Shown here piece after piece: positions 6,375-16,852 of a stretch of DNA of 17,235 bases. A model generated the notes under the pieces. That model saw nothing but the letters and a program-made list of their open reading frames with translations, ran no database searches and had not been told where the DNA came from. Origin of the DNA: Verrucomicrobiota bacterium (GTDB taxonomy: Bacteria > Verrucomicrobiota > Verrucomicrobiia > Verrucomicrobiales > Akkermansiaceae); NCBI GenBank assembly GCA_026397695.1, contig JAPLUJ010000686.1:1-17235 (forward strand), in the 5' to 3' direction. The position numbers were made by a program, and so were the translations under genes. Numbering within the stretch: position 1 is the stretch's first letter; each line of letters starts with the position of its first letter.

Positions 6375-7205
6375 ATGGGCATTTTCAGCAAACCCCACCT
6401 GCACCCTGGTAACCGCCGTGATGACGTGCCGGAAGGCCTCTGGGACAAGTGCCCGGATTGTGGCACAATGATCCATAACCTCGAACTCCAACAGAATCTT
6501 CACGTCTGTCCGCACTGCGGCCACCATTTTCTCATGGCTGCCCACGCGCGCATCGGCATGCTCGCCGACGGCGGATCCTTCGAGGAAACGGCGGCGGACC
6601 TCGTTTCCGCCAACCCTCTCGGGTTTCATGGGTATGCCGAGAAAATCGCGGTTTTGCAGGAGAAAACCGGGTTGAACGATGCCGTCGTCACGGGCCGCCT
6701 CACCCTCGGCGGCCACCGTGCGATGATCGCCGTGATGGATTTCAGGTTTTTCGCCGGCTCGATGGGATCGGTGGTCGGTGAAAAAATCACCCGCGCCATC
6801 GAGTTGGCCACTGCCGAAATGCGCGGGGTCATCATCATATCCGCCTCCTCCGGCGCACGGATGCAGGAAGGCATGCTCTCGCTGATGCAAATGGCCAAGA
6901 CCTGCGGGGCTCTGGCGCGGCTTGCCGCAGCGCGGCTGCCCTACATTTCCCTGTTCACCCATCCCACCACCGGCGGCGTGACGGCGGCATTCGCCACCCT
7001 CGGCGACGTCAACCTCGCCGAGCCCAAGTGCATGATAGGATTCGCCGGCCCGCGGGTCATCAAGGAAACGACCCATCAAAATCTGCCGGCCGGTTTCCAG
7101 ACGGCGGAGTTCATGTTAGAGCATGGCTTGATCGATGCCATCGTGCCCCGTTCGATGCAGCGGGAGCGGCTGGCCAGCTTGTTAGGTTACATGCTGCCGC
7201 AGTGA
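6375..7205 (+). CDS. accD: Acetyl-CoA carboxylase carboxyltransferase subunit beta
   Basis: The beta subunit of the acetyl-CoA carboxylase carboxyltransferase, which with AccA moves the carboxyl group from biotin to acetyl-CoA, the first committed step of fatty-acid synthesis. The N-terminal zinc ribbon has Cys26, Cys29, Cys45 and Cys48 (CPDCG...CPHCG). The crotonase-like core shows GSMGSVVGEKI, ISASSGARMQEG, HPTTGGVTAAFA and AGPRVIKETT. The frame is open back to 6138, but the stretch before the ATG at 6375 has no family similarity and is low-complexity. Starting at 6375 gives 276 residues beginning MGIFSKP, as AccD proteins commonly do. No Shine-Dalgarno site precedes it. It converges with the hypothetical gene ending at 7225. 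Confidence 0.95.
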   Translation: MGIFSKPHLHPGNRRDDVPEGLWDKCPDCGTMIHNLELQQNLHVCPHCGHHFLMAAHARIGMLADGGSFEETAADLVSANPLGFHGYAEKIAVLQEKTGLNDAVVTGRLTLGGHRAMIAVMDFRFFAGSMGSVVGEKITRAIELATAEMRGVIIISASSGARMQEGMLSLMQMAKTCGALARLAAARLPYISLFTHPTTGGVTAAFATLGDVNLAEPKCMIGFAGPRVIKETTHQNLPAGFQTAEFMLEHGLIDAIVPRSMQRERLASLLGYMLPQ

Positions 7206-7224
7206 CCCTCAGTTCCCCGTGTGC

Positions 7225-7701
7225 TCACCCTTCGCCCGGCGGGGTGACCACCACGACGCGCTCCACGCCGCATTTCGAGAATTCCTCCCAGTAGCGTTTT
7301 TCCCAGGCGGTGGTGCGGGCGCGGCGGTCTTCCTCGCTGAGTTTTTCCCAGGCGGCGAAGCCGATGGCGCGGGCGAGGTCGCGGTCGGCCATGCGCACCG
7401 CCAGTTCGTCCCAGAAACTCTCGTTACGGAATTCATCGTAGCATTCGTGGTAAAACAAGCGCTCCTCCATCTCCTGCTTCACCCGGAACCGCTGGCTCTC
7501 CTCGTCAAACTCAATCCAATCCCCGAGCCCGGAATGGCCGGCCTTTTCCAAGATCTTGCTCTCCAATTCCTCGAAGGCCGCCAGCCGTTCGCTGGCGGAT
7601 TCCTTCTGGTTCCATGACGCGACATTGGCCGCAAGGCTCACCATTTCCACCAATGTGGCAAGTTCCTGATCTGACAAGCGCAAGTGCATTCGTGCCCGCA
7701 T
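7225..7701 (-). CDS. Hypothetical protein, charged and mostly helical
   Basis: I do not recognise this 158-residue protein. It is rich in Glu, Arg and Trp and looks largely alpha-helical and soluble (LSDQELATLVEMVSLAANVAS, then EMEERLFYHECYDEFRNESFWDELAVRMADRDLA, here divided at will). There is no signal peptide, membrane segment or known motif. The frame extends to 7923, but the upstream part crosses the intergenic palindrome and the heptamer repeat and is not protein-like. The ATG at 7701 is preferred because a GGAG lies eight bases upstream; an internal ATG at 7689 is the alternative. It converges with accD (19 bp) and is divergent from the aminopeptidase gene. The regular amphipathic pattern and a good ribosome site support a real gene. 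Confidence 0.7.
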   Translation of the reverse strand: MRARMHLRLSDQELATLVEMVSLAANVASWNQKESASERLAAFEELESKILEKAGHSGLGDWIEFDEESQRFRVKQEMEERLFYHECYDEFRNESFWDELAVRMADRDLARAIGFAAWEKLSEEDRRARTTAWEKRYWEEFSKCGVERVVVVTPPGEG

Positions 7702-7792
7702 CCAACCATCTCCACGACCAACCCGCAAGTCTGCAACTGTGGTCGGGTTGGCACCCGGGTGCATGACAAAAAAATCAAGGAGGGGCGATCTC

Positions 7793-7874
7793 CTGAATCG
7801 CCCTCGCCCATGGGATGCCAATGGTGGGTGGTTGACCTCAGCCCATTGGCACTTCATGGGCAACGGCGGATCGG
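7793..7874. repeat. Large intergenic palindrome (about 82 nt)
   Basis: The arms 7793-7824 and 7843-7874 are inverted copies with few mismatches around an 18-nt loop. The inner 18-bp block (7807-7824 with 7843-7860) has one mismatch and two G-U pairs. Pairing is better as + strand RNA because the G-T pairs become C-A on the other strand. Both strands translate to a similar CQW...PLA.HG string, as expected for an inverted repeat. It could be a REP/MITE-like element or a structured transcript. Confidence 0.6.
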
Positions 7875-7903
7875 AGTTCCGGTGAAATGGTTCCTCCGAG
7901 ATT

Positions 7904-7924
7904 CTGCAATCTGCAATCTGCAAT
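7904..7924. repeat. Tandem heptamer (CTGCAAT)3
   Basis: Three perfect head-to-tail copies of CTGCAAT lie between the palindrome and the aminopeptidase gene, followed by a diverged copy. In the + strand they translate to CNLQSAI, a string I recall from many spurious reading frames in environmental bacteria, so this is probably a dispersed short tandem repeat family. Confidence 0.85.
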
Positions 7925-8006
7925 CCGCGTTCCCCTATTCCCGATCTACAAGCTCCCCGCGACTTGGTACTTGGAAAACCGGCTGCCAGCGGCTATCCAC
8001 AGTGCC

Positions 8007-9770: not shown

Positions 9771-9940
9771 ATAAGGATCTGGTCGCGGCGCGACCATTGA
9801 ATAGCGCTCCCTGTTCGCCCGCTCTGTCCTCTGATAGCTCTTGCCAAAATCCGCATGTTGCAGGTAGGATTGCGCGCGTTGAGGGTGAGACGCCGATGAG
9901 CGGCGGGCTTGCAATTCAACGCGCCAACACCCACCCATTT

Positions 9941-10990
9941 ATGCAAGAACAGAAAAGAGTCGTGGAAAAAGACCCTCCGCCGCGCAAGGACGACCTGATA
10001 GTCATCACCGGTGCGGGCGGATTCATCGCCGGCAACCTTGCCCGCTACTTTACTAACAAGGGATTCACGCGCATCCGCGCCGTGGACAAGAAGCCGCTCT
10101 ATGAGTGGTATCTCCATGTGCCCGGGGTGGAAAACCTCTGCCTTGACGTGAGCCGGGAGGCTAACTGCCAGCGCGTTTGCGAAGGCGCGGTGGAAGTCTA
10201 TAATCTCGCCGCCGACATGGGTGGCATGGGGTTCATCGAGCGCTTCCGCGTCGAGTGCCTGCGCTCGATCCTCATCAACACCCACATGGTCGAGGCCGCC
10301 TACCAAGCGGGTGCGCGGCGCTACTTTTACGCGAGTTCGGCGTGTGCCTACAACACGCTGCTGCAGGAAGACCCGAATGTGCGCGCGCTCAAGGAGAGCG
10401 ACGCCTATCCGGCGATGGCCGAGCGCGGATATGGCTGGGAGAAACTCATCTCCGAGCAGTTCTGTCAGGAATACTGGCATGAGCGCGGCATGAAGACCTT
10501 CATTGCACGCTTCCACAATGTCTATGGCCCGCATGGTACTTGGGACGGCGGCCGCGAAAAGGCACCCGCCGCGATATCACGCAAGGTCATTGAAGGCCTG
10601 GATAAGAATGACCTGCGCATCAACATCTGGGGCAACGGCGAGCAAACACGCAGCTTCATGTATATCGATGACTGTGTGCAGGGCATCGACAAGATCATGC
10701 ATTGCGACGAACTCATCGCCACGCCGATCAACCTCGGATCCAGCGAGATGGTTTCCATCAACACGCTGGTGAGCAAGGTAGAGAAAATAGCGGGCGTGAC
10801 GATGCAGCGCAGCTATGACCTCGACGCGCCACAGGGCGTGGCTGGACGCAACTCCGACAACACCTTCATCCAACAGGTTTTGCATTGGGAACCTAGCACC
10901 TCGCTCGACCAGGGCATGGCCGTCACCTACGCATGGATCAAGGAACAATATCAAAAACGCAAGGCTGGCGAACGCGTGGGCATGGGCTGA
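9941..10990 (+). CDS. GDP-mannose 3,5-epimerase-like extended SDR protein
   Basis: This extended short-chain dehydrogenase/reductase matches plant GDP-mannose 3,5-epimerase, which converts GDP-D-mannose to GDP-L-galactose and GDP-L-gulose. A close relative has been characterised from the verrucomicrobium Methylacidiphilum. The NAD-binding TGAGGFIA is at 23-30, followed by NLAADMGGMGFI (88-99). The catalytic set is intact: Cys135 in SSACAY, Tyr164 and Lys168 in YGWEK, and Lys207 in GGREKAPAA. Other plant-like blocks are RFHNVYGPHGTW, QTRSFMYIDDC, GSSEMVSIN, GRNSDN and TYAWIKEQ. The 349-residue length is typical. The ATG at 9941 is chosen; an in-frame ATG at 9896 would add 15 residues. The kinase-like gene follows after 8 bp, so it heads a three-gene operon. 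Confidence 0.9.
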   Translation: MQEQKRVVEKDPPPRKDDLIVITGAGGFIAGNLARYFTNKGFTRIRAVDKKPLYEWYLHVPGVENLCLDVSREANCQRVCEGAVEVYNLAADMGGMGFIERFRVECLRSILINTHMVEAAYQAGARRYFYASSACAYNTLLQEDPNVRALKESDAYPAMAERGYGWEKLISEQFCQEYWHERGMKTFIARFHNVYGPHGTWDGGREKAPAAISRKVIEGLDKNDLRINIWGNGEQTRSFMYIDDCVQGIDKIMHCDELIATPINLGSSEMVSINTLVSKVEKIAGVTMQRSYDLDAPQGVAGRNSDNTFIQQVLHWEPSTSLDQGMAVTYAWIKEQYQKRKAGERVGMG

Positions 10991-10998
10991 CGAACCGC

Positions 10999-11793
10999 AT
11001 GACTCCTTCGCCAGTCACCCGCTATCTGGGTTCCATCCCCAACCGCCTGCAACTCGCGGGCGGCTGGATCGACCAGCCGTTCGTTTCCCAACACAACCCG
11101 CAGCCGCCCGGATCGATGGTGGTGGTGCAAATCGAACCGGACTTCCGTCCGATGGATCGATCCGGCATCGCCAGTGGCACCCGCGCCATCGCCATGAAAA
11201 TCTGGAAAGGCAAGCTGCCTAACCGATCTGCGGAGGCATTGGTGCGCGAGCTCTACGCTGCCGAAAACCATGGCAAAGCCGAGCCGAGCGGGTCGCAGGA
11301 CATGATCGGATTGGTCTATCCCGGGGTGAACCGCCTGGATTACGACTTTCATGTGCACGGGGGCGTTTTCCCGGCGCACATCGAATCGTGCAAGCGGGTC
11401 AAGGTCGCGCGCTGGCTGGACAAGGTGTTACATCTGATACCGGTCGAAGCGCGGCCCGATGGCTACAGCCCATTGGGCTGCCAGAACCTCGATCCCAAAT
11501 GGGTGGCACGCCTCGCCCGGGCGGGCCGCGATTGCTACGATGCCATCGTCCGGATGGATGTCATGGCGCTCGGCGCAGCGCTCAATTTGAACATGCAATG
11601 TTGGGAGAAATTGCTGCCGCACACCGTCCGGCATCCCTTGCTCCGGGTGGATTTGCTGCCCCTGCTCAAGGCCTATCAGAAGCAATACCCCGGCGCGATG
11701 TATTCTGGTTGCGGCGGCGGCTATCTGATAGTCGTGGCGCACGAGCCGGTGCCCGGCGCATTCCACATCAAGGTCCGCACCACCCCACCATGA
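10999..11793 (+). CDS. Compact GHMP-type sugar kinase-like protein
   Basis: I infer a small-molecule kinase of the GHMP superfamily (264 residues). Motif 1 is visible as NRLQLAGGWIDQP (15-27), like the AGGGTDLP of heptose and fucose kinases. A phosphate-loop-like SGIASGTRA is at 55-63. SGSQDMIGLVYPG (97-109) resembles the GGxQDQ block that carries the catalytic Asp in HddA-type kinases. The C-terminal SGCGGGYL (236-243) fits motif 3. The protein is shorter than typical GHMP kinases (about 320-350), mainly because motifs 1 and 2 are only about 30 residues apart. Its neighbours, an NDP-sugar epimerase 8 bp upstream and a nucleotidyltransferase overlapping by 4 bp (ATGA), suggest it forms a sugar 1-phosphate. 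The substrate is unknown. Confidence 0.65.
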   Translation: MTPSPVTRYLGSIPNRLQLAGGWIDQPFVSQHNPQPPGSMVVVQIEPDFRPMDRSGIASGTRAIAMKIWKGKLPNRSAEALVRELYAAENHGKAEPSGSQDMIGLVYPGVNRLDYDFHVHGGVFPAHIESCKRVKVARWLDKVLHLIPVEARPDGYSPLGCQNLDPKWVARLARAGRDCYDAIVRMDVMALGAALNLNMQCWEKLLPHTVRHPLLRVDLLPLLKAYQKQYPGAMYSGCGGGYLIVVAHEPVPGAFHIKVRTTPP

Positions 11794-12602
11794 ACAAGGT
11801 CATCGTTTCCGCTGGTTTAGACAACCTGTCATCGCGTGACATGCGCTTCCTCGAGGAAGCGGCCAAGCACGGCGAACTCCACGTGCTGCTGTGGTCCGAC
11901 GAGGCCATCCGCCACATCACGGGCAACCCGCCCAGCCTGCCACTCGCCGAACGCGAATACTTCGTCCAAGCCGTCCGCTACGTCGCTCGCATCCATCTAT
12001 CGGAAGACTCGTTAGATCCCGCCACGCTGCCCGATCTCGGCGGCTTGCGGCCGGACATCTGGTGCGTCGATGAAGCGAGCGCTTCAGCCGCGAAGGAGGC
12101 GTATTGCACCGCGCACGGCATCACATACCGCCGCATCCCGGATCTAACATGCGCCGCATTCCCCGTACCGGCACCGCTGCCTCTCACGGGACGCAAGAAA
12201 GTCGTGGTCACCGGTTGCTACGACTGGTTCCACACCGGGCATGTCCGGTTTTTCGAGGAGTGCGCGGAGTTGGGCGACCTGTTTGTGGTGGTCGGCCACG
12301 ATGCTAACATCCGCCTGCTCAAGGGTGACGGTCATCCGATGTTCCAAGAAGACGAGCGCCGTTATCTGGCAGGCTCCATTCGTTATGTTACCCAGGCACT
12401 GGTTTCCTCAGGTATGGGCTGGCTGGATGCCGAACCGGAAATCCATACCCTCAAACCGGATATCTATGCCGTGAACGAAGATGGTGACAAACCGGAAAAA
12501 CGTGCGTTTTGCGCCCGCCTCGGCCTCGAATATGTGGTGCTCAAGCGCACCCCCAAACCCGGCTTGGCCCGGCGCACCAGCACGGATTTACGCGGGTTCT
12601 AA
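11790..12602 (+). CDS. Two-domain cytidylyltransferase-like protein with a degenerate N-terminal domain
   Basis: A 270-residue protein made of two copies of the HxGH nucleotidyltransferase fold. The C-terminal copy (about 136-270) has the intact signature TGCYDWFHTGHVRFFEE with HTGH at 148-151, and ends with RRTSTDLRG, like the RTxxISTT segment of such enzymes, so it probably joins a nucleoside monophosphate to a phosphorylated substrate. The N-terminal copy (1-125) aligns with it, including REYFVQAVRYV against RRYLAGSIRYV, but has LSSRD where FHTGH should be, so it is probably non-catalytic. The layout recalls ethanolamine-phosphate cytidylyltransferase. It is translationally coupled to the kinase-like gene through the ATGA overlap at 11790-11793. 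A sugar 1-phosphate substrate is my inference from the operon. Confidence 0.75.
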   Translation: MNKVIVSAGLDNLSSRDMRFLEEAAKHGELHVLLWSDEAIRHITGNPPSLPLAEREYFVQAVRYVARIHLSEDSLDPATLPDLGGLRPDIWCVDEASASAAKEAYCTAHGITYRRIPDLTCAAFPVPAPLPLTGRKKVVVTGCYDWFHTGHVRFFEECAELGDLFVVVGHDANIRLLKGDGHPMFQEDERRYLAGSIRYVTQALVSSGMGWLDAEPEIHTLKPDIYAVNEDGDKPEKRAFCARLGLEYVVLKRTPKPGLARRTSTDLRGF

Positions 12603-14685: not shown

Positions 14686-15252
14686 TCAATCCTTGATCTG
14701 CTCTAACAGAAGATGCAGGATTTTGCGGGCGGAGTCGGGGATGACGGTGCCGGGGCCGAAGATGGCGGCGGCGCCGTTTTGATAGAGATACTCGTAGTCG
14801 CGGGCGGGGATGACGCCGCCGCAGACCACCATGATATCGTTGCGGCCGAGTTCATTGAGTTCGGCGATGAGTTCGGGCAGCAGGGTTTTGTGGCCGGCGG
14901 CGAGCGAACTCATGGCGACGACATGGACGTCGTTTTCGACGGCTTGGCGGGCGGTTTCCGCAGGGGTTTGGAACAACGGTCCGATATCGACGTCGAAGCC
15001 CATATCGGCGTAGGCGGTGGAGACGACCTTGGCACCGCGGTCGTGGCCGTCCTGGCCCATTTTGGCGACCATGAGGCGCGGTCGGCGGCCTTCGATGGCC
15101 TCAAATTGTTTGATGAGATCAGGGATGTCTTTCATGTCACCTTGGTTGCTGAATTCCTTGCCATAAACTCCGGAGATGGTGCGAATGACGGCTTTGTAGC
15201 GGCCGAAATGGATTTCCATGGCGTCGGAGATTTCGCCGAGGTTGGGCGGCAT
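14686..15252 (-). CDS. Methylmalonyl-CoA mutase large subunit, C-terminal (B12-binding) part, out of frame with the N-terminal part
   Basis: This frame holds the end of the mutase large subunit: the last part of the barrel region ([21 protein letters not shown], 6 onward in part, then SGVYGKEF), the linker, and the complete cobalamin-binding Rossmann domain. The B12 motif D-x-H-x2-G is present ([12 protein letters not shown]), with [21 protein letters not shown] and GGVIPARD downstream, all standard for methylmalonyl-CoA mutase. An ATG at 15252 exists, giving 188 residues, but the break is inside a helix of the substrate domain, not at the natural boundary used by split archaeal-type mutases, so this looks like the downstream half of a frameshifted gene rather than a true separate subunit. 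Confidence 0.85.
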
Positions 15253-16852
15253 CGATGGCGAGGGCTAGCAGGTTGCCCGCGGTGCCACCAGCACAATCGG
15301 TGAGTGCTTGCAGCGTGGCTTGGCAGCGGGTCTCGTCGCGTTCGGCGCGGAGTTGGTGGAGACGTTCGATTTGGGAAATTCTAACAGCCGTATTGTCCAC
15401 GTCGAGGGTCTCGATGGGTGCTTCCCGGGCGAGGCGGTATTGGTTCACGCCGACGATGATTTCCTCGCCCGAGTCGATGCGCGCCTGGCGGCGGGCGGCG
15501 GCCTCTTCGATGCGCATTTTCGGGATGCCGGCGGCGACTGCCTTGGACATGCCGCCGAGATTTTCGGCTTCCATGATATGGGCCCAGGCGCGGTGGATGA
15601 GTTCGTGGGTGAGGGCTTCCAGATAGTAGGAGCCGCCCCACGGATCGATGACGCGGCAGATTGCGGTTTCGTCCTGCAGGAAGATCTGGGTGTTGCGGGC
15701 GATGCGCGCGGAGAAATCCGTGGGCAGGGCGATCGCTTCGTCGAGCGCGTTGGTATGCAACGACTGGGTGTGACCGAGCGTGGCGGCCATGGCCTCGATG
15801 CAAGTGCGCGCGATGTTGTTGAACGGGTCTTGTTCGGTGAGACTCCATCCGGACGTCTGCGAGTGGGTGCGCAGGGCGAGTGACTTCGGGTTTTGCGGGT
15901 TGAAGGTGTTGACGATTTTCGCCCACAGCACGCGCGCGGCGCGCAGTTTCGCCACTTCCATGAAATGGTTTTTCCCCTGCGCCCAGAAAAACGAGAGGCG
16001 TGGCGCGAAGGCATCGATATCGATGCCCGCCGCGATGCCGGTGCGGAGATATTCCCAGCCGTCGGCCAGGGTGTAGGCCATTTCGAGGTCGGCGGTGGCA
16101 CCGGCTTCCTGCATGTGATAACCGGAAATTGAGATTGAGTTGAATTTCGGCATGTTGCGCGAGGTGAACTCGAAGATATCGGCGACGATTTTCATCGAGG
16201 GACCTGGCGGATAGATATAGGTATTGCGCACCATGTATTCCTTGAGGATGTCATTTTGGATGGTGCCCGCGAGTTGGTCGAGCGAGGCGCCTTGCTCCAA
16301 GGCGGTGACGATATAGAAGGCGAGGATGGGCAGCACCGCGCCATTCATCGTCATTGAGACGGAAACCTTGTCGAGCGGGATGCTGTCGAAGAGCAATTTC
16401 ATATCGAGGATCGAATCGATGGCGACTCCCGCCTTGCCGACATCGCCGGTCACGCGCGGGTGGTCCGAGTCATAACCGCGGTGGGTGGGGAGATCGAAGG
16501 CGACTGATAGACCTTTCTGGCCGGCGGCGAGGTTGCGGCGGTAGAAGGCGTTGGATTCCCCGGCGGTCGAGAAACCCGCGTATTGGCGGATCGTCCATGG
16601 TTGGAAGCAATACATCGTGGCATAGGGACCGCGGAGAAACGGCGCGATGCCCGCCTGATACTGCAAGTGCTCCATGCCGGCGATGTCGTCTGCCGTGTAA
16701 AGCGGCTTGACGGGGATGTTCTCCAGCGTGTTCCAGACGATCGCGCCGATGGGTTTTCCGTGGTCCTTTTCGAGTGCGGCGCACCACTCATCATAGCCGG
16801 TGGCGGACGGCGTGGCGGAGTAGGGGATATTTGCGAAATCGGGGCGGCTCAT
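15137..16852 (-). CDS. Methylmalonyl-CoA mutase large subunit, N-terminal (substrate-barrel) part, frameshifted
   Basis: This is the TIM-barrel part of adenosylcobalamin-dependent methylmalonyl-CoA mutase, which interconverts (R)-methylmalonyl-CoA and succinyl-CoA. Typical blocks are [73 protein letters not shown] and [10 protein letters not shown]. Tyr81 matches Tyr89 of the Propionibacterium enzyme, and the Arg in [11 protein letters not shown] matches Arg207, both markers of methylmalonyl rather than isobutyryl specificity. The sequence is family-like through codon 536 (ending at 15245), then about 35 unrelated residues follow to a stop at 15137, while the true continuation lies in another frame. 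The leader (16853-16930) contains a heptamer repeat and no ribosome binding site. Confidence 0.9.

Follow-up and report, generated by a model that had tools for sequence, protein, structure and literature searches.

The window analysed here, a 17,235-nucleotide stretch (contig JAPLUJ010000686.1 of assembly GCA_026397695.1, Verrucomicrobiota, Akkermansiaceae), carries between positions 9941 and 12602 three adjacent genes for a GDP-mannose 3,5-epimerase (GME) homologue, a compact GHMP-type kinase and a two-domain HxGH nucleotidyltransferase. This trio probably (at a rough probability of 0.58) encodes a Leloir-like, GDP-linked pathway by which L-galactose enters mannose metabolism, as judged from sequence comparison. 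Where the locus is complete, a GH29 enzyme (once GH95) would free L-galactose from glycan and a FucP-type permease would import it; the compact kinase would then phosphorylate C1 to give L-galactose-1-phosphate, the HxGH nucleotidyltransferase would turn this into GDP-L-galactose, and GME would invert C3 and C5 to yield GDP-D-mannose. A mannose-1-phosphate guanylyltransferase (ManC) run backwards would release mannose-1-phosphate, with GTP and pyrophosphate being recycled. We infer the substrate (L-galactose), the nucleotide (GTP) and the direction of flux.

All three genes lie on the + strand: the GME homologue at 9941..10990 (350 aa; ATG at 9941, TGA at 10988-10990), the kinase, a relative of the L-fucokinase domain of FKP, at 10999..11793 (264 aa; ATG at 10999, TGA at 11791-11793) and the nucleotidyltransferase at 11790..12602 (270 aa; ATG at 11790, stop ending at 12602). 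The first two are separated by 8 nt and the last two overlap by 4 nt (ATGA), which confirms the operon layout given in an earlier note on this DNA. An alternative in-frame ATG for GME is possible at 9896; by hand count, 43 of 61 near-full-length relatives align only from around the Met at 9941 or later. The GC content is 0.603 in the trio and 0.600 in the remainder of the window. The window is contig C491 of a draft genome of 4.5 Mb (759 contigs, 82.78% complete), in which the compact kinase is present as a single copy.

The trio is a conserved module and not a chance arrangement. Among the best 80 of 272 matching loci, 68 have enough flanking sequence, and in 50 of these the full trio occurs in order on one strand (39 contiguous, 11 interrupted); the epimerase is upstream of the kinase in 58/68 and the nucleotidyltransferase downstream in 60/68. 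Conservation of the three families together, a check suggested in the earlier note, is borne out by these counts. Pairwise distances of the three genes, determined for the 50 loci with near-full-length genes, correlate with r of 0.76-0.78, the maximum in 1000 label shuffles being 0.36. The records of the 80 loci are labelled Verrucomicrobia/Limisphaerales, Acidobacteria, Alphaproteobacteria, Planctomycetota/Phycisphaerae and Kiritimatiellae, labels which can be wrong for metagenome bins. Of 288 genomes sampled from the phylum, 33 gave a kinase match; in 21 of these it is of a fused form described below (L008-L028), and some of the remainder are fragments. Within the window's genus a match was detected in 5 of 73 genomes, namely the window's own, one with a 94% relative (L083, labelled Akkermansiaceae) and three with the fused form. 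This patchy occurrence fits horizontal transfer of the module. The sets of 39, 14 and 16 genomes used in the analysis are chosen subsets.

Gene 1 matched the GME structures 8sg0 and 2c59 with E values of 3.8e-80 and 2e-79 over a span of about 330 aa, the next family being GDP-fucose synthase (E 1.4e-22). Eight residues are named as important in Arabidopsis GME, S143, C145, Y174, K178, N203, K217, R243 and R306 (partial text of PMC8787198), and all eight are conserved in the alignment, as S133, C135, Y164, K168, N193, K207, R237 and R303 (numbering matched by hand). The SDR triad, the Cys-Lys acid/base pair (C135, codon at 10343-10345, and K207, codon at 10559-10561, both on the + strand) and the substrate residues are all present, in agreement with the intact catalytic residues reported previously. 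GME equilibrates GDP-mannose, GDP-L-galactose, GDP-L-gulose and GDP-D-altrose, with a balance unfavourable to forward ascorbate synthesis according to the same partial text (PMC8787198), and this suits flux towards GDP-mannose. Gene 1 is proposed to convert GDP-L-galactose into GDP-D-mannose.

No Pfam family was matched by the window kinase alone; when a 50-row kinase profile (A5; 40 trio-class and 10 fused-class rows) was examined, PF08544 matched 10 of the 50 rows. Homologues of the kinase are abundant: at a threshold of E 0.001 at least 7465 among 8000 scored candidates qualify, and the best 120 are all at least 78% identical. Against the PDB, A5 matched the fucokinase chain of FKP, the L-fucokinase/GDP-fucose pyrophosphorylase of Bacteroides fragilis, with a whole-sequence E of 4.1e-6, no single stretch being significant by itself. 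Comparison of the kinase profile with 25 FKP kinase domains in hhalign gave 97.8% (E 1.1e-12, 238 columns), and 96.0% (E 4.8e-9, 231 columns) under other column settings; these 25 are the domains, from 30 fetched loci, that contain the motif-1 pattern, a selection which favours the match (L182, L189 and L203-L205 were dropped). Two other GHMP groups of 13 and 10 sequences, by eye galactokinases and homoserine kinases, gave no match (0.3% and 0.5%), though the FKP run used -mact 0.1 and this comparison a different setting. For the latter 30 loci were fetched, of which five had no frame carrying the loop pattern, and L150 and L160 (by eye HddA-like, single) were left out. The GHMP-type assignment made earlier for the middle protein is upheld by the profile comparison with FKP.

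The residues of FKP that hold the sugar or act in catalysis are R592, W599, D601, Q761 and D762, the last being the proposed general base (partial text of PMC11982464). Their counterparts in the compact kinase are R16, W23 and D25, in motif 1 (PNRLQLAGGWIDQP; 11038..11079, +), and Q100 and D101, in the SGSQD motif (11287..11301, +), and these five are invariant in 50/50 rows of A5. The position of FKP T602 is occupied by an invariant Gln in the compact kinases of A5. A glycine-rich loop, SGIASGTR (11161..11184, +), was aligned by eye with GSGLGTSS of FKP, as hhalign did not place it; its GIASGTR variant differs from the canonical loop, and in the trio class it has Ser/Thr at position 59 in 35/40 rows and at position 61 in 40/40. 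In motif 3, GGGYL (11713..11727, +), G239-G241 are present in 50/50 rows and Y242 is invariant in A5. Gene 2 is described here as a compact fucokinase-like kinase of predicted activity, and is proposed to act as an anomeric kinase for L-galactose, a sugar that FKP accepts and from which it produces GDP-L-galactose, as stated in the partial text of PMC11982464. A second trio-class kinase copy, 65% identical to that of the window, is found in Rhizomicrobium electricum (L208, 8183-8995), and no epimerase or nucleotidyltransferase match was detected in the 17 kb around it.

The product of gene 3 matched PF01467 with 42.2 bits (cut-off 21). Its score with the HldE domain II model rfaE_dom_II, 58.7 bits, is well under the cut-off of 181.5, and it is not assigned to that family. 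The sole HxGH motif, HTGH (12231..12242, +), is in the C-terminal domain. Among 33 aligned relatives the motif is found in the C-terminal half in all 33 and in the first 60 residues in none, which points to a degenerate copy in the N-terminal domain. The two-domain nucleotidyltransferase of the earlier note can thus be described as one intact HxGH domain preceded by such a copy. The N-terminal half (11790-12134), a duplicated domain that lacks HxGH in 33/33 relatives, is nonetheless retained, and it may bind nucleotide or the kinase, or have a regulatory role. Gene 3 is proposed to form GDP-L-galactose from L-galactose-1-phosphate.

In distant relatives (kinase identity 31-40%) a single nucleotidyltransferase domain is fused ahead of the kinase in the same frame. 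This was the case at 21/21 loci (L008-L028), with open frames of 380-524 aa, and the fusion is good evidence that both enzymes act in sequence. The fused family is large, with at least 7993 members among 8000 scored candidates. It includes L114 8263-9396 and L115 6663-7796; some of its members lie near a GMD or Fcl-like gene, so it may provide a way of salvaging GDP-L-fucose other than FKP.

The neighbours of the trio class were counted over the 80 loci by tblastn with named representatives, as gene calls from long open frames in GC-rich DNA are often antisense; the counts cover that set, in which there are no glycosyltransferases. GH29 genes occur in 21/80 loci, always on the strand of the trio. 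They are also the only query-set genes within interrupted trios, 10 of the 11 containing them and the eleventh having a 458-nt gap with no match. The background density, 375 GH29 matches in 155.4 Mb (32 genomes), predicts 2.5 genes in the 1.04 Mb of loci, or 7.1 at the highest density; these genomes were chosen partly for GH29 at the locus, and GH29 was scored by Pfam in the genomes and by tblastn in the loci. The nearest solved structures of two tested operon GH29s are 7snk and 7ljj/7lnp, of which 7snk and 7ljj are the exo-alpha-L-galactosidase BpGH29 of Bacteroides plebeius (partial text of PMC12316285). This nearness is a similarity and not proof of specificity. At L081 a GH95 gene follows the kinase, and GH95 enzymes which release L-galactose exist (partial text of PMC10154630).

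A FucP-like permease is present in 10/80 loci, all on the same strand and 27 to 100% identical to two representatives (L086 just 27%); the representative permease is closest to the L-fucose-proton symporter structure 3o7q (E 1.6e-69). An AraC gene adjoins the epimerase in 29/80 loci and is divergent in 26 of these, and a ManC-type gene is present in 10/80, all on the same strand. In Rhizomicrobium electricum DSM 21034 the genes for GME, kinase, nucleotidyltransferase, ManC and permease follow one another on one strand, after a divergent AraC gene. A Leloir-type gene set of kinase, transferase and epimerase together with uptake and hydrolase genes is seen in part of the relatives, and not at the window locus. 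On the opposite strand near the trio (L032-L036, L040, L053-L058 and others), esterase (18/80), GH43 (7/80) and NTP_transferase-like (10/80) genes were also observed.

In three genomes (G020, G053 and G007) the gene order is GME-kinase-ManC, and no close nucleotidyltransferase was found genome-wide (best E 1.1e-6 to 3.1e-6). Eight named loci have no downstream nucleotidyltransferase; the genome of one, L038, has such a gene elsewhere (E 2.5e-95), and the genomes of the other seven gave partial matches only. Thirteen trio-linked ManCs group apart (99/99) from four other rows; a single gene, on a long branch, accounts for two of these, leaving three distinct others. On one reading ManC-type enzymes could stand in for the guanylyltransferase step, and this would argue for GTP as the nucleotide. 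A wider proposal, for which the chances appear close to even though slightly short of it, is that a GDP-based Leloir cycle for L-galactose spans phyla. It would consist of the compact kinase, an HxGH guanylyltransferase (replaced in some lineages by a dedicated enzyme of the ManC type that carries out both pyrophosphorylase steps) and GME working towards GDP-mannose, and, with GTP and pyrophosphate regenerated, its net cost would be one ATP per L-galactose converted to mannose-1-phosphate.

Several observations weigh against L-galactose use by the trio. To our knowledge HxGH transferases use ATP or CTP, and use of GTP would be unusual. The stretch from motif 1 to the glycine-rich loop is shorter in the kinase than in FKP, by about 80 residues. 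No nearby epimerase was found at 10/68 loci and no nearby nucleotidyltransferase at 8/68, and in genome G211 the 18 kb around the GME-kinase pair contain no nucleotidyltransferase and no ManC. An FKP-like protein that could do guanylyl transfer (402-421 bits against a cut-off of 721) is also encoded in each of the three genomes with the GME-kinase-ManC order, which weakens the ManC-replacement point. In the flanks examined, 59/80 loci are without GH29 and 70/80 without permease, and GH29, permease, AraC and ManC neighbours are all absent beside the window trio and its 94% twin. The function of the window trio is accordingly assigned by orthology. Outside the trio the window's genome has eight GH29 matches; the contigs fetched from it include a GH29 gene 67% identical to an operon GH29 (L143 3322-4878), a permease relative (53%; L141 2406-3800) and a ManC (35%; L145 2579-3658). 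We infer that the bare trio of the window works together with these GH29, permease and ManC genes from other parts of the genome.

Most GH29 enzymes are fucosidases and the sugar transported by FucP is L-fucose, which likewise counts against L-galactose and in favour of a second possibility, namely that the kinase and nucleotidyltransferase act like FKP to form GDP-L-fucose, with GME either producing GDP-D-rhamnose (6-deoxy-D-mannose) or being loosely coupled. The nearest relative of the kinase is indeed an L-fucokinase, and the Km of FKP is about 100-fold higher for L-galactose than for L-fucose (partial text of PMC11982464). This route is nevertheless considered improbable, since the epimerase and ManC fit GDP-mannose and GDP-L-galactose and the closest GH29 structure is an alpha-L-galactosidase. 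As GME and ManC act on sugars with a 6-hydroxyl, the gene content is easier to reconcile with L-galactose. The distribution of L-fucose isomerase was also informative. Its N-terminal domain was searched for in 16 genomes and gave a strong match (E below 1e-70) in nine, the window's genome and 8 of the 15 others. These nine thus have a separate route for fucose, and in genomes with that route the trio probably serves another purpose. Weaker matches were obtained in G319 (clear, 111 bits), G303 (45 positions) and G308 (partial, under the cut-off), and no match was obtained in G309, G311, G312 and G414, although incomplete genomes may hide the gene. Three of the latter (G309, G311 and G312) are alphaproteobacterial genomes with the operon and the permease, so the permease need not serve an isomerase route. 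L-galactose is favoured as the substrate of the trio, with L-fucose as a less probable one.

The setting of the fused class also speaks against a purely catabolic role and is one ground for a biosynthetic one, in which GDP-mannose would be converted by GME into GDP-L-galactose (or GDP-L-gulose) for use in an envelope or exopolysaccharide, and the kinase and nucleotidyltransferase would recover the free sugar. Nucleotide-sugar or glycosyltransferase genes were detected at four of six scanned fused-class loci: GMD about 4 kb downstream of the fused gene (L115), a glycosyltransferase with an Fcl-like gene (L129; 424.5 bits, cut-off 500), a nucleotide-sugar dehydrogenase (L125) and a TviC-like epimerase (L116), with L114 and L122 having none. 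At three loci of the window's own genus (L215-L217; positions 8775-11025 in L215) the fused gene adjoins a different GME homologue of 56-57% identity, and at L215 and L216 there are, by eye, GMD- or GDP-fucose-synthase-like and sulphate-activation-like genes nearby. L215 also encodes a second HxGH protein of 360 aa (6870-7949). Bacterial GME has been connected with lipopolysaccharide (partial text of PMC8787198), and the window trio has no catabolic neighbour. It follows from the fused-class loci that the same chemistry can serve synthesis. Trio-class loci, on the other hand, repeatedly carry GH29, permease, AraC and ManC genes, all but AraC without exception on the strand of the trio (glycosyltransferases were not screened there), and for this class the biosynthetic alternative is judged unlikely, though it is the strongest of the competing explanations. 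The earlier note had combined a chain from sugar to sugar-1-phosphate to NDP-sugar, a GME link to the GDP-mannose pool and an L-sugar with an envelope or exopolysaccharide purpose. The chain remains the natural reading and an L-sugar is indicated; the proposed purpose is less supported for the trio class, given its GH29-type hydrolase, L-fucose-type permease, AraC and mannose-1-phosphate guanylyltransferase neighbours, though some loci of the distant fused class, those of three genomes in the window's genus among them, do have a biosynthetic setting.

HldE combines a sugar kinase with an HxGH transferase, and HddA is a GHMP kinase, both of them acting in heptose activation. The logic of kinase plus HxGH transferase is alike in the trio, and the nucleotidyltransferase is similar to domain II of HldE; the fused protein, for its part, weakly matches a heptose kinase structure (3k85, HddA; E 0.02). 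Heptose activation was nonetheless not preferred, as gene 3 falls far below the HldE cut-off, HddA is absent from the PDB matches of profile A5 and the trio has GME (the neighbours were not screened for heptose genes). More generally, the substrate might be another sugar such as D-arabinose, L-gulose or a heptose, or the middle protein might no longer be a kinase and only bind sugar. The compact size of the kinase and its altered glycine-rich loop would suit this, and FKP accepts D-arabinose according to the partial text of PMC11982464; as the sugar-contact and general-base residues are invariant and the trio is co-inherited, it is the least probable of the alternatives considered.

The trio of the window is flanked by a GNAT gene upstream and by a PQQ-repeat gene downstream on the opposite strand. 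Further downstream, on the minus strand, a methylmalonyl-CoA-mutase-like gene (by eye) is split across two overlapping frames (14686-15252 and 15137-16852), possibly by a frameshift or sequencing error. A scan for promoters and terminators gave three promoter-like sites (1.3 in shuffles) and one terminator-like site (3.0 in shuffles), a result that was not used.

The Leloir pathway of D-galactose consists of GalK, GalT and GalE. The proposed pathway would follow the same logic, in which a GHMP kinase phosphorylates the anomeric carbon, nucleotidyl transfer and epimerisation of the nucleotide sugar follow, and a hexose-1-phosphate is regained, but differs in its L-sugar, in GDP instead of UDP, in the FKP-like compact kinase, in the HxGH transferase or ManC and in the double C3/C5 epimerase. 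With FKP it would share the sugar-contact residues of the kinase, the combination of kinase and nucleotidyltransferase leading to a GDP-L-sugar, and L-galactose as an accepted sugar (partial text of PMC11982464); in contrast to FKP, the trio kinase is shorter by more than 100 residues, about 80 of which are lost from the stretch between motif 1 and the glycine-rich loop, the transferase is of the HxGH type and an epimerase leading to GDP-mannose is added. In the plant L-galactose pathway to vitamin C, GME likewise links GDP-mannose and GDP-L-galactose (partial text of PMC8787198), the direction proposed for the trio being the opposite one; GDP-L-galactose phosphorylase and L-galactose dehydrogenase are not part of the trio (its neighbours were not screened for either). 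Catabolism of L-galactose by dehydrogenases has been described in Luteolibacter LG18, also of the Verrucomicrobiota, and in Phocaeicola vulgatus; it is oxidative, proceeds via L-galactonate and tagaturonate and, as far as the partial text of PMC12632266 describes it, involves no anomeric kinase, nucleotidyltransferase or GME. A literature search found no paper on an L-galactokinase (L-galactose kinase) or L-galactose-1-phosphate guanylyltransferase, and among the papers listed none on the proposed route or a catabolic use of GME, as judged by title and opening of the abstract; this is weak evidence of absence, as the search covered open-licence papers only.

The kinds of enzyme involved are known, and what is new is their combination, the compact kinase and the proposed direction. 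If correct, the pathway would be a further route of entry for L-galactose beside the dehydrogenase route, and GDP-mannose 3,5-epimerase would have a catabolic role in bacteria. Two large families with a scarcely annotated kinase part would also receive a function, and the enzymes could be used to produce GDP-L-galactose or GDP-mannose from free sugars. Rhizomicrobium electricum DSM 21034, a named strain with the whole operon, makes the proposal directly testable.

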